From NCBI GenBank assembly GCA_016870115.1, contig VGCH01000010.1:62001-126000 (forward strand): 64,000 bases of DNA, written 5' to 3'. A model generated the notes under the pieces. The model was given only the letters and a program-made list of their open reading frames with translations. It was not told the origin of the DNA and did not search any database. This document shows positions 11,512 to 16,135 of this stretch, piece after piece (within the stretch, counting starts at the first letter, position 1; each line of letters opens with the position of its first letter). This stretch comes from Alphaproteobacteria bacterium. Its GTDB lineage: Bacteria > Pseudomonadota > Alphaproteobacteria > Reyranellales > Reyranellaceae. Made by a program: the position numbers and the translations under genes.

Positions 11512-13680
11512 ATGCTCGATCAGCCGCCCGATCCGGTCGCCGCCCGCCGGACCAATCCCGAACGCTCCTTCTCGCATGAGGTGAAGTCGCTGCGTCTCGG
11601 AGCTGGCGAGACATTCCGGGGCGAGGGCGTGCTGGCCGTCACCAAGGCGATCCTGCAGGCCGGTGTCGGCTATGTCGGCGGCTATCAGGGCGCGCCGATG
11701 TCGCATCTGGTCGATGTGCTGGTCGAGGCGCAGGACCTGCTGGACGAGCTCGGCGTCCATCTCGAGACCTGCACCAACGAGGCGTCGGCGGCCGCGCTGC
11801 TCGGGGCCTCGATCAACTATCCGGTGCGCGGCTGCGTCACCTGGAAGTCGATCGTCGGAACGAATGTCGCTGCGGACGCGCTGTCGAACCTGGCGTCGCC
11901 CGGCGTGATCGGCGGCGCGCTGATCGTGGTCGGCGAGGATTACGGCGAGGGCGCCTCGATCATCCAGGAACGCGCCCACGCTTTCGCACTCAAGAGCTCG
12001 GTCTGGCTGCTCGATCCGCGGCCCAACCTGCCGACCATCGTGCGGCTCACCGAGGAAGCCTTCGAGCTGTCGGAGGCCAGCAACACGCCGGTGATGATGG
12101 AGCTGCGCATCCGCGCCTGCCACGTGACCGGCGAGTTCCCGGCCAAGGACAACCGGCCGCCGTCGGTGTCGCGCAATCGGCGGCTGGCCGAGCCGGCCGC
12201 CTACAATTACGACCGGATCTCGCATCCGCCTTCGACCTATATTCACGAGAAGCTGAAGGTCGAGGTGCGCCAGCCGGCGGCCGAGCGGTTCATTGTGGAG
12301 CGCGGTCTCAACGAGCTGCTGCCCGGCACGCGCCAGGATCTGGGCATCGTCGTCCAGGGTGGCATCGCCAATGTCCTGATGCGCGGCCTCGATCGGCTGG
12401 GCCTGGCCGACGACGACGGCGCGGGCAGCATCCCGACGCTGGTGTTGAACGTCACGCACCCGCTCTCGTCGGACCAGATCGCCGACTTCTGCCGCGGCAA
12501 GCGCGCCGTGCTCGTCGTCGAGGAGGGCGCGCCGGACTACATCGAGCAGTCGATCCACGCGATCCTGCGCAAGCGGGGCATCGACACGACGCTGCACGGC
12601 AAGGACATGCTCGCCATGGCCGGCGAGTACACCGCCGAGCTGGTGACCGACGGGCTGCTGAAGTTCTTCGCGCGCAACGCCAACGACATCGATCTTTCCG
12701 GCCCTCGCACCCGCTTCGAGGCGGCGCGCGCTGGTCGTGCCGAGGCGCAGCGCCTCTTGGGCCGGCCGCTGCCGCTGCGTCCGCCCGGTTTCTGCACCGG
12801 CTGCCCGGAGCGACCGGTCTTCTCGGCGATCAAGCTGCTCGAGCGCGAGGTCGGGAAGGTCCATATCTCGAGCGACATCGGCTGCCATTCCTTCGCGACG
12901 CTGGCGCCGTTCAACCTCGGCAACTCCATCCTGGGCTACGGCATGTCGCTCGCCGCCGCCGGTGCGGTCGCGCCGGTGATGGAGCGGCGAACCATCTCGG
13001 TGATGGGCGACGGCGGCTTTTGGCACAACGGGCTGCTGAGCGGCGTGTCGTCGGCGCTGTTCAATCGCGGCGATCGCGTGCTGGTGGTCATGCAGAATGG
13101 CTACACCTCGGCCACCGGCGCGCAGTTCATTCCCAATACCGAGGGCAATCGCCGAGACGGCCAGAACACCTCGGACATCGCCGCGACGCTGCAGGCGATG
13201 GGCGTGAAGTGGCTGCGCACGGTACGCACCTACGATGTCGGCCTGACGCTGCGCACGCTGCGCGAGGCGATGACGACGAAGGAGCGCGGCCTCAAGGTCA
13301 TCGTGGCGGACGGCGAATGCCAGCTCGCGCGCCAGCGTCGCATCCGGCCGCAGATCGCAGCGCAACTCAAGGCCGGCGAGCGCGTGGTGCGCACGCGCTA
13401 TGGCGTCGATGACGATGTCTGCACCGGCGATCACAGCTGCATAAGGCTGTCGGGCTGCCCGTCGCTGGTGGTGAAACCCAGTCCCGATCCGCTGCGCTCC
13501 GATCCGGTGGCGCACGTCAACAATGGCTGTGTGGGCTGCGGTCTCTGCGGCGAGGTGGCGGATGCGGCCGTGCTGTGCCCGTCCTTCTACAAGGCCGATA
13601 TCGTGCGCAATCCCACCTGGTGGGATCGGTTGAAGTGGCGCCTGCGCTCCACCGTCATCGGAGCGCTGGCCCGTGCCTGA
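11512..13680 (+). CDS. iorA: Indolepyruvate:ferredoxin oxidoreductase, alpha-type subunit
   Basis: 722 residues. The N-terminal half is a pyruvate-oxidoreductase-like domain (GYVGGYQGAPMSHLVDVL). The C-terminal half is a thiamine-diphosphate domain (VMGDGGFWHNG, then MQNGYTSATGAQ). A final two-cluster ferredoxin segment holds CTGDHSCIRLSGCP and CVGCGLCG, for 4Fe-4S centres. IorA-type enzymes oxidatively decarboxylate aryl-pyruvates to aryl-acetyl-CoA, passing electrons to ferredoxin. It heads an operon with a chlorite-dismutase-like gene, the beta subunit and a thioesterase, each overlapping the next. The exact 2-oxoacid is not determined. Confidence 0.88.
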   Translation: MLDQPPDPVAARRTNPERSFSHEVKSLRLGAGETFRGEGVLAVTKAILQAGVGYVGGYQGAPMSHLVDVLVEAQDLLDELGVHLETCTNEASAAALLGASINYPVRGCVTWKSIVGTNVAADALSNLASPGVIGGALIVVGEDYGEGASIIQERAHAFALKSSVWLLDPRPNLPTIVRLTEEAFELSEASNTPVMMELRIRACHVTGEFPAKDNRPPSVSRNRRLAEPAAYNYDRISHPPSTYIHEKLKVEVRQPAAERFIVERGLNELLPGTRQDLGIVVQGGIANVLMRGLDRLGLADDDGAGSIPTLVLNVTHPLSSDQIADFCRGKRAVLVVEEGAPDYIEQSIHAILRKRGIDTTLHGKDMLAMAGEYTAELVTDGLLKFFARNANDIDLSGPRTRFEAARAGRAEAQRLLGRPLPLRPPGFCTGCPERPVFSAIKLLEREVGKVHISSDIGCHSFATLAPFNLGNSILGYGMSLAAAGAVAPVMERRTISVMGDGGFWHNGLLSGVSSALFNRGDRVLVVMQNGYTSATGAQFIPNTEGNRRDGQNTSDIAATLQAMGVKWLRTVRTYDVGLTLRTLREAMTTKERGLKVIVADGECQLARQRRIRPQIAAQLKAGERVVRTRYGVDDDVCTGDHSCIRLSGCPSLVVKPSPDPLRSDPVAHVNNGCVGCGLCGEVADAAVLCPSFYKADIVRNPTWWDRLKWRLRSTVIGALARA

Positions 13681-14215
13681 TGCCGTCGTCTTCAGCGGCG
13701 GCGCTTCAGGTGCCTGGAAGGTCGTGCGTCAGGTGGCCGTGACCGGAGCGCCGCTTCCGCCGGTGGCGCGCATCGAGAAGGGTGGCAAAGCCGTGACCGA
13801 TGCCGCCTGGGTGCTGATGGGCGTCACCAGCAATCTGCGTTACACGACAGCGGCGGAGAAGCGCATCCTCGATGCCACGCCCTCGGTGCTCGGCCGGCCG
13901 TCGGCGACGCGGGGCGCGCTGATCCCGATCACCAAGTCGGCGCGCTGGTGGGGCCTGCCGCAGGATGAGCGCCGCGCCATCCTTGAAGAGCAGTCCCGCC
14001 ATATCGCGATTGGCAGCGCCTATCTTTCCAAGGTGTCGCGCCAGCTGGTGCATTGCCGGGACCAGGCCGGCGCTCGGTTTGACTTTCTCACTTGGTTCGA
14101 GTTCGCGCCTGCCGACGAACCCAGGTTCGACGAATTGTTGGCCGAGCTGCGCGCCTCGCCCGAATGGCGCTTCGTCGAACATGAGGTCGAGATCCGCCTG
14201 GACCGGGGCACATGA
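13673..14215 (+). CDS. cld: Short (clade-2-like) chlorite dismutase family heme protein
   Basis: 180 residues from GTG, overlapping the iorA stop by 8 bases. The sequence runs closely with the short dimeric chlorite dismutase of Nitrobacter as I recall it: FSGGASGAW at the start, ALIPITKSARWW, then the heme segment with proximal His110 (EEQSRHIA). Arg123 in VSRQLVHCRD follows 13 residues later, the same spacing as the His/distal-Arg pair of that enzyme. FDFLTWFEFAP and WRFVEHEVEIRL close the ferredoxin-like fold. Such enzymes bind heme b and split chlorite to chloride and O2; distal Arg is the mark of the active group. A role in guarding the oxygen-sensitive oxidoreductase is an inference. 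Confidence 0.82.
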   Translation: MPDAVVFSGGASGAWKVVRQVAVTGAPLPPVARIEKGGKAVTDAAWVLMGVTSNLRYTTAAEKRILDATPSVLGRPSATRGALIPITKSARWWGLPQDERRAILEEQSRHIAIGSAYLSKVSRQLVHCRDQAGARFDFLTWFEFAPADEPRFDELLAELRASPEWRFVEHEVEIRLDRGT

Positions 14216-15729
14216 GCCGTCCCGTCACCCTCCTGATCGGGGCGCTGGGCGGCGATGGCGGCGGGGTGCTGTGCGACTGGATCGTCGAGGCGGCACAGGC
14301 GCGCGGGCTCGGCGTGCAGGCGACGCAGATCCCGGGCGTCGCGCAGCGGACCGGTGCCACGACCTACTATCTCGAGGTGATGCCCCAGCCGGGCGCGCGG
14401 CCGCGCGTGCTGGCGCTCAATCCGGCGATCGGCGAAGTCGATGTGGCGCTGGCGTCGGAGCTGCTTGAGGCGGGCCGCATGATCTTCAACGGGTTCGTGA
14501 CACCCGACCGCACCGTGCTGATTGCCTCCACCCATCGCGTGCTCGCCATCGCCGAGCGCTCGGCCATGGGCGATGGCGCGTTCGACACCGGCAAGCTCCT
14601 GCGCGCGGTGAAGGAGCGCAGCAAGGCCCAGATCCTGTTCGACATGGATCAGGCGGCGGAGGAGTCCGGCGGCGTGCTGAACGCGGTCCTGCTGGGCGCG
14701 CTGGCGGGCTCGGGTCGGCTGCCGATTCCGGACGAGGCCTACGAGGCCGCGATCCGTGCCTCGGGCAAGTCGGTCGATTCCAACCTCGCGGGCTTCGCGT
14801 TCGGACGAGCGCATGCGCGGGGCGAACTCGACCAGGCGGTGCGCCAGCATCGCAAGCGACAGGCCGAAGCCGCGGGCGTCGAGGACCTGACGGCGCGCGC
14901 CCGCACAGCACTGCCGGCGGCGGCGCTCGATACCATCGAAGAGGGCGTGCGGCGGTTGGCGGCCTATCAGGATCGCCGCTATGCCGCGCTCTATCTCGAC
15001 CGGCTGGACGCGCTCGCTGCGGTGTCGGCCGACGCGGCGTTGCTGCGCGAGGTGGGCCGGCATCTCGCGGTGCGCATGTCGTTCGAGGACGCGATCCGCG
15101 TGGCGCAGGCCAAGGCCGCGCCGGACCGGATGGCGCGTATCCGCGCGGAGGTGCGTGCCGGCGCGGATGAACCCATCGAGGTCACGGAGCATTTCAAGCC
15201 GGGCATCGAGGAGCTGTGCGCGTTGCTGCCGCCGGCGCCTGCCCGCGCGATCGTCGGTTGGGCCGAGCGGACGGGGCGACTGGGGCGCGTGTTCTTCCCG
15301 ATGCGGCTGCGCACCACGACGGTGAGCGGCTATCTGCGGGTGCGGCTGCTGGCCGGCTTGCGCTGGTGGCGGCCCCGGACCTGGCGCTATGCCGAGGAGC
15401 AGGCGGAGATCGAACGCTGGCTCGGGGCCATTCGTTCCGCCGCCGCGCGCTCGCCCGCGCTGGCGCTGGAGATCGCGGAGTGCGCGCGGCTGGTGAAGGG
15501 CTATGGCGACACGCTGAAGCGCGGGCTGGCCAATTGGCGGCGCATCGAGGCGGAGCTGGTGGCACCGGCACTGGCGGGCACCCTGTCGCCGCAGGCCGCC
15601 ATCGATGCGATCGCAAGCGCGCGGGTCGCGGCGCTCGCGGACCCGGACGGCGAGACGCTGACGCGCACGCTCGCGTCTGCCGCGCAGCGGCTGGGCGGGG
15701 CGGGAGCGGTTCGGCATGCCGCCGAGTAA
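14212..15729 (+). CDS. iorB: Indolepyruvate oxidoreductase beta-type subunit with DUF6537 extension
   Basis: 505 residues. The N-terminal third is the gamma/beta catalytic domain of 2-oxoacid oxidoreductases (LLIGALGGDGGGVLCDWI, then VAQRTGATTYYLE). The long remainder, helical and rich in Arg and Ala, fits the DUF6537 region found on large bacterial indolepyruvate oxidoreductases. In those the three parts form one chain of over 1000 residues; here they are split into alpha and beta genes with the heme protein gene between. ATG overlaps the cld stop (ATGA), and the 3' end overlaps the thioesterase start by 14 bases. Confidence 0.84.
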   Translation: MSRPVTLLIGALGGDGGGVLCDWIVEAAQARGLGVQATQIPGVAQRTGATTYYLEVMPQPGARPRVLALNPAIGEVDVALASELLEAGRMIFNGFVTPDRTVLIASTHRVLAIAERSAMGDGAFDTGKLLRAVKERSKAQILFDMDQAAEESGGVLNAVLLGALAGSGRLPIPDEAYEAAIRASGKSVDSNLAGFAFGRAHARGELDQAVRQHRKRQAEAAGVEDLTARARTALPAAALDTIEEGVRRLAAYQDRRYAALYLDRLDALAAVSADAALLREVGRHLAVRMSFEDAIRVAQAKAAPDRMARIRAEVRAGADEPIEVTEHFKPGIEELCALLPPAPARAIVGWAERTGRLGRVFFPMRLRTTTVSGYLRVRLLAGLRWWRPRTWRYAEEQAEIERWLGAIRSAAARSPALALEIAECARLVKGYGDTLKRGLANWRRIEAELVAPALAGTLSPQAAIDAIASARVAALADPDGETLTRTLASAAQRLGGAGAVRHAAE

Positions 15730-16135
15730 CCGCCACAACGTGACCGTGGAGTGGGGCGACTGCGACCCCGCCGGGATCGTCTATTACCCCGCCTATTTCC
15801 GCTGGTGCGATCAGGCGACCGGACGGTTGCTGCAGGCGCTGGGCATCGTGCGCGATCCGCTGGTCGACGGGCAATGGAAGGAAGGCACGCCGCTGGTGAA
15901 GGCGGAGTGCTCGTTCCGCCGGCCCTCGCAGCCGGGCGAAGTGCTGACGATCGAGAGCAGCATCGCGCGGGTGGGGCGCAGCTCGTTCGAGATCGCGCAC
16001 CTCTTCCGCGACGCCACGGGTGCCGTCGCCGCGGAAGGCCGCGAGACACGGATCTATGCCCGCAAGGACGGCGATGCGCGCAGCCTCAAGGCGGTGGCCA
16101 TCCCGCCCGAGATGCGCCGGCGGCTGGGCGCCTAG
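15716..16135 (+). CDS. Acyl-CoA thioesterase, 4-hydroxybenzoyl-CoA thioesterase (YbgC) type
   Basis: 139-residue hot-dog protein. The catalytic motif WGDCDPAGIVYYPAYFRW contains the Asp of the 4HBT active site, followed by the expected F-x-R-P-S-x-P-G-E segment. It would hydrolyse an aryl- or acyl-CoA to free acid and CoA. Overlap with the oxidoreductase beta gene suggests it releases aryl-acetate from the aryl-acetyl-CoA made by that enzyme, possibly discarding the thioester energy. That coupling is inferred from the operon. Confidence 0.88.
   Translation: MPPSNRHNVTVEWGDCDPAGIVYYPAYFRWCDQATGRLLQALGIVRDPLVDGQWKEGTPLVKAECSFRRPSQPGEVLTIESSIARVGRSSFEIAHLFRDATGAVAAEGRETRIYARKDGDARSLKAVAIPPEMRRRLGA

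Follow-up and report, generated by a model that had tools for sequence, protein, structure and literature searches.

Chlorite dismutase (Cld) is present in many bacteria with no chlorate respiration, and the locus described here bears on why they have it. The window, a 64,000-nucleotide stretch of contig VGCH01000010.1 (assembly GCA_016870115.1) from an alphaproteobacterium of the family Reyranellaceae, holds a cld gene between iorA and iorB, the two genes of an indolepyruvate oxidoreductase (IOR). Does this Cld serve the oxidoreductase, or does it carry out ordinary chlorite chemistry from within the operon? The setting allows a test for a Cld partner beyond chlorite chemistry. It is a natural experiment in which close relatives differ in whether cld occupies a single precise junction, the rest of the operon being conserved, and a further comparison comes from other family genomes, which keep a different cld elsewhere. 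We favour ordinary chlorite detoxification, and we find that the position of cld in the operon is lineage-specific, long-lived and dispensable.

Organization of the operon

The features of the operon, drawn from the open reading frame (ORF) listing, family scans and junction comparison, are as follows.

11512..13680, plus strand: iorA, indolepyruvate oxidoreductase alpha-type subunit, 722 aa, with a TPP domain and a C-terminal Fe-S domain (CTGDHSC...CVGCGLC); ORF listing and family scans
13673..13680, plus strand: 8-nt overlap of the iorA stop and the cld start, GTGCCTGA; junction comparison
13673..14215, plus strand: cld, clade 2 (lineage 2a-type) chlorite dismutase, 180 aa, GTG start; K88, H110, R123 and E164, with Pro70 for Gln74 of CCld
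14212..14215, plus strand: 4-nt overlap of the cld stop and the iorB start, ATGA; ORF listing and junction comparison
14212..15729, plus strand: iorB, POR domain and DUF6537, NF006179 family, 505 aa; ORF listing and family scans
15716..16135, plus strand: YbgC/FadM-type hot-dog acyl-CoA thioesterase, 139 aa; 4HBT_2 / YbgC-FadM family

The ORF listing and family scans agree with the original prediction of four overlapping plus-strand genes (iorA-type, a heme protein, a beta-DUF6537 type and a hot-dog thioesterase), with iorB and the thioesterase gene overlapping by 14 nt (15716-15729). The cld product matched Chlor_dismutase PF06778 with 33.7 bits (cut-off 25) and the iorB product matched NF006179 with 549.6 bits (cut-off 348). 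The two subunits have the expected IOR features, a TPP domain and C-terminal Fe-S cysteines in alpha and a POR domain in beta. iorA matched TPP_enzyme_C and the IOR_alpha-like model TIGR03336, the latter with 259.9 bits against a cut-off of 650.9; because IorA lies under this equivalog cut-off, indolepyruvate is only a candidate substrate of the IOR. Sequence searches found no solved relative of IorA at 1e-5. A scan for promoters and terminators across the operon gave no signal exceeding that of shuffled sequences.

The same note had described a large oxidoreductase split around cld. We found instead that every relative examined encodes IorA and IorB separately, usually in directly adjacent genes, so there is no split; cld is an insert. 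The operon cld is the sole PF06778 gene of its 3.56-Mb genome, which also encodes two fused IORs with open frames of ~1200 aa each.

Predicted fold and active site of the embedded Cld

Full-length matches of the Cld in the PDB (phmmer) were 9gtj (1.7e-54), 3qpi (9e-47) and 5k8z (8e-46). An AlphaFold model (pLDDT 93.3, pTM 0.90) was closest in an AF2/Foldseek comparison to the dimeric Cld 9gtj (1.2e-25, TM 0.93). The model gave TM values of 0.89-0.94 with clade 2 structures and only 0.5-0.67 with clade 1, and it aligned far less well with coproheme decarboxylases than with clade 2 Clds. By this model the 180-residue protein is a short Cld with a predicted dimeric-type clade 2 fold, for which ~180-190 aa is typical.

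Barnum and Coates define active Clds by four residues, R127, K92, H114 and E167 (PMC9751292). The alignment equivalents of these CCld residues in the window are R123, K88, H110 and E164, and all four are invariant in 11/11 embedded Clds. The 13-residue spacing of His110 and Arg123 that had been noticed from the sequence is right, the pair aligning with H114 and R127 of CCld. The evidence thus supports an embedded Cld of clade 2 whose predicted heme site is intact. A HemQ identity found no backing in the window, where the Cld scored only 12.6 bits against NF042928 (cut-off 235) and no hem genes are adjacent.

The window Cld resembles the clade 2 / lineage 2a enzymes of Nitrobacter winogradskyi (NwCld, 3qpi), Cyanothece (CCld, 5k8z) and Pseudomonas (9gtj) in length and fold, and it shares with them the proximal His/Lys/Glu, the distal Arg, and the WW and FDFLTWFE blocks. 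Unlike these three, the embedded clade lies in an IOR operon and has several changes in common: one extra residue following RDQ, a Ser that immediately precedes the catalytic Arg (A122S), Ser or Ala for the Pro four residues upstream of that Arg (P119S/A), and Pro at the position of CCld Gln74. This Pro (Pro70 in the window) is present in 11/11 embedded Clds, while the position in 83 other Clds is Gln in 72, Ser or Thr in 10 and Pro in 1. Gln74 is a feature typical of clade 2 rather than one that defines it, and the copies with Pro lack it. In CCld, Gln74 keeps the distal Arg "out" via a hydrogen bond; the Q74V substitution frees the Arg and lowers KM, with a similar or higher kcat/KM for chlorite (PMC7931450). 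Since Q74V CCld remains active, we do not expect Pro70 to inactivate the enzyme.

Distribution of cld and of iorA-iorB

A homologue scan of 84,980 species genomes found at least 494 stretches that encode relatives of the Cld, of which the best 80 loci were kept. Genes for ior adjoin cld in 9 of these best 80, all nine from genomes of the window's own family. The other 71 belong to lineages outside the family, and their examined flanks (up to 6 kb) contain no ior gene. For the Cld family at large, then, homologues lie mostly outside oxidoreductase operons, which the original prediction had named as evidence against itself. The survey of gene order that it had proposed nevertheless showed recurrence within the family: among 75 genomes of Reyranella and its kin, the window's included, 10 have the order iorA-cld-iorB. 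IorB (NF006179) is above cut-off in 67 of the 75 and Cld is present in 22. Standalone cld, away from ior genes, occurs in 12, and the neighbours at the two such loci inspected are an M48 peptidase gene and other unrelated genes. The remaining 65 family genomes lack the embedded Cld, though nearly all possess IOR.

In a class-wide sample of 385 Alphaproteobacteria genomes, IorB was over cut-off in 59 and PF06778 matched in 11, the two being adjacent only in the window's genome. Neither this sample nor the best 80 homologue loci contained iorA-cld-iorB outside the window's family. Viewed against other two-gene IORs with IorB-DUF6537 (NF006179), the window's IorB is over the family cut-off and iorA and iorB are adjacent in the relatives examined, whereas cld lies between the genes only in some members of the window's family.

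We considered and set aside two further patterns. No family genome (n=75) holds both an embedded and a standalone cld, but such mutual exclusion is expected by chance at ~13-15% (0.126 for 11 and 12 of 75, and slightly more for 10). An apparent second, independent ior-cld link came from 3 genomes of another alphaproteobacterial family, in which iorB has a PF06778 gene 11 kb upstream. The gene proved to be HemQ-like and part of a hem operon, and TonB receptor genes separate it from iorB. This gene (L125:4181-4969, also in L126 and L127) scores ~45 bits and lies within an operon of the type hemC-hemD-hemB-hemE-x-hemH-hemY; its bearers are diderms, a group in which HemQ is unusual.

The Cld neighbourhoods described in the main text of Barnum and Coates 2022 (PMC9751292) include clade 2 Clds without an adjacent perchlorate or chlorate reductase, as here, and oxidoreductases of unknown relevance beside Cld; that main text mentions neither indolepyruvate, DUF6537 nor Reyranella. 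Our literature search found no paper tying Reyranella to chlorite dismutase, and searching for chlorite dismutase and indolepyruvate jointly returned archaeal work only.

Age and history of the proposed insertion

The embedded Clds are monophyletic (support 100/100) with a stem length of 0.73, and 11 of the 12 standalone family Clds form a separate Cld clade. Embedded cld is under purifying selection, with dN/dS mostly 0.12-0.19 (range 0.05-0.29). When the window is compared with the other genus, cld (pS 0.54-0.55) and iorB (0.53-0.55) have the same synonymous divergence. The equal pS of the two genes, together with monophyly and low dN/dS, indicates an old, vertically inherited and functional gene.

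All ten readable junctions of cld-containing genomes have an 8-nt iorA/cld overlap, GTGCCTGA or ATGGCTGA, and most have the 4-nt overlap of the cld stop with the iorB start. In genomes without cld, either a gap of 11-162 nt separates iorA from iorB, or the two genes meet or overlap at GTGCCTAA, a motif that agrees with the first bases of cld (GTGCCT). Candidate cld remnants between iorA and iorB in these genomes were discarded, the tblastn hits all being at chance level. Short palindromic repeat-like sequences were seen in the iorA-iorB gap of several of them (L096, L097, L099, L117, L119, L121 and L123).

Genomes with cld are scattered on the IorA and IorB trees (none of 200 bootstraps fits one change, and three is the minimum number required). 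One old insertion followed by repeated loss would be the simplest history; its polarity depends on outgroups that lack cld and on the placement of the window's genus, which has weak support (80/33, 88/58). Alternatively, each host could have gained cld in its operon by a separate move, or recombination around iorA-iorB could have spread the gene among Reyranella strains. The scatter would also agree with such moves, as would the GTGCCTAA junction, which is identical in non-sister genomes without cld. However, the embedded Clds form one clade with a common 8-nt overlap and a tree that largely tracks that of IorA, and between the genera cld has diverged as much as iorB; we consider separate moves or recombination doubtful. 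In one genome (G013), two near-identical iorA-cld pieces (L087 and L088) lie on two contigs that end within the operon, from either two strains or a duplication.

The oxidoreductase and its thioesterases

The Fe-S motif of IorA, CTGDHSC...GCP...CVGCGLC...CP, is identical in relatives with and without cld. In CTGDHSC, Asp sits where a ferredoxin motif would have its second Cys. At the C-terminus (window ~13430-13640; L120-L125), CTGDHSC and CVGCGLC(x9)CP are found across all two-gene IORs seen.

Many relatives have a PaaI-like gene between iorB and the YbgC-like thioesterase gene (L085:5924-6331, and L087, L090-L092, L095-L097, L100, L101, L103, L104 and L123). It is absent from the window, where, as in L086, L089, L098, L099 and L102, iorB overlaps the thioesterase gene. 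The product of this gene in relatives scored 98.6 bits against TIGR02286 (hydroxyphenylacetyl-CoA thioesterase), below the cut-off of 118.9, and is PaaI-like only. Internal stop codons that seemed present in some relatives' IorB were an artefact of a match that ran beyond the true IorB stop; the next gene there is PaaI-like.

Phaeobacter ior1, an aerobic alphaproteobacterial IOR, reportedly converts phenylpyruvate to phenylacetyl-CoA (PMC5577590). By analogy with this description of Ior1, arylacetyl-CoA is a plausible product of the window IOR; no cld is reported for the Phaeobacter enzyme, unlike the window operon. A candidate phenylacetyl-CoA epoxidase of the canonical kind in the window's own genome was rejected, the PaaA match being only 84 bits against a cut-off of 280, so a full Paa route is not supported for this genome.

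Function of the embedded Cld

The original prediction proposed that the heme protein guards or tunes the oxidoreductase in air, and a Cld that clears chlorite, hypochlorite or peroxides near the Fe-S clusters would fit with gene overlaps at both ends and with long persistence inside the operon across two genera. The embedded Clds form a single old clade that has stayed within the operon, which leaves room for a link to IOR, and Clds do react with hypochlorite to give Compound I (PMC9910045). Yet IORs with the identical Fe-S motif manage without cld in most relatives, so any air tolerance of IOR does not need it, and 12 family genomes carry cld elsewhere instead. Published Clds, moreover, are reported to have neither catalase nor H2O2-peroxidase activity, and their product is O2 (PMC9910045), the wrong one for shielding an oxygen-sensitive enzyme. 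Taken together, this evidence does not support the proposal, and protection of IOR by Cld appears unlikely. A more specialised role, in which a freed catalytic Arg lets Cld act on an IOR by-product such as an aryl-peracid as a dedicated aerobic partner, strikes us as quite improbable. A version in which the clade has switched substrate altogether and disposes of aryl-peracids or organic peroxides formed by O2 attack on the TPP-bound intermediate of IOR is very improbable. It has a precedent in another TPP enzyme, acetohydroxyacid synthase, which makes ThDP-peracetate and free peracetate (PMC9188596), and it would accommodate the long stem, the invariant Pro and the changes beside the catalytic Arg. 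On the other hand, all residues for chlorite activity are retained, our literature search found no documented oxygenase side reaction of IOR, and the many IOR-bearing relatives do without an embedded Cld.

It had also been suggested that IOR and the thioesterase form an auxin-like route from indolepyruvate through indoleacetyl-CoA to indoleacetate, with Cld incidental. The order of genes agrees with this, in that one or two hot-dog thioesterases, one of them PaaI-like, are encoded after the IOR-type enzyme, and the part of the suggestion that concerns arylacetyl-CoA and a thioesterase is plausible. Specificity for indole is not supported: phenylalanine and tyrosine breakdown uses the same chemistry, as with the phenylpyruvate-converting Phaeobacter enzyme (PMC5577590), and the PaaI match is below cut-off and the gene is missing from the window. 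The PaaI-like gene in relatives suggests arylacetyl-CoA generally, rather than auxin specifically, and we regard an auxin route with a bystander Cld as improbable.

The reading we prefer, with a probability of roughly 0.6, is an old insertion of a chlorite-detoxifying cld that is co-expressed with an IOR not dependent on it. A single insertion, before the window's genus split from the main Reyranella-type genus, would have placed a clade 2 cld precisely between iorA and iorB in the operon of a two-gene oxidoreductase acting on aryl-pyruvates (indolepyruvate/phenylpyruvate type). The gene would then have been inherited with the operon and lost several times. The overlapping start and stop codons may couple translation of cld to that of the operon. 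As judged from its residues, Cld most likely still converts chlorite to chloride and O2. IOR would yield arylacetyl-CoA, hydrolysable by the thioesterase or thioesterases, and would give cld its expression context, not its substrate, the two activities being independent. Because of the long stem and the common changes near the catalytic Arg, the substrate of the embedded clade could have shifted. Ten genomes retain cld at exactly one place, which a mere passenger need not do. Overall, embedded cld resembles a detoxification gene carried along by an operon that suits its expression more than it resembles a dedicated protector of IOR.

The chlorite could come from incoming reactive chlorine or from side reactions in the cytoplasm, for example when molybdenum enzymes reduce chlorate. 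Enzymes of the DMSO reductase superfamily are known to reduce chlorate co-metabolically, and PMC9751292 places such enzymes in Cld neighbourhoods elsewhere. In the window's own genome we identified no dedicated or proven chlorate reductase. It encodes two enzymes of this superfamily, formate dehydrogenase-N and a homologue of BisC/TorA-family S/N-oxide reductases (977 bits, cut-off 1017.55), along with further molybdopterin enzymes. The formate dehydrogenase-N frame (G000:C19:11647-13107) contains one in-frame TGA, probably encoding selenocysteine.
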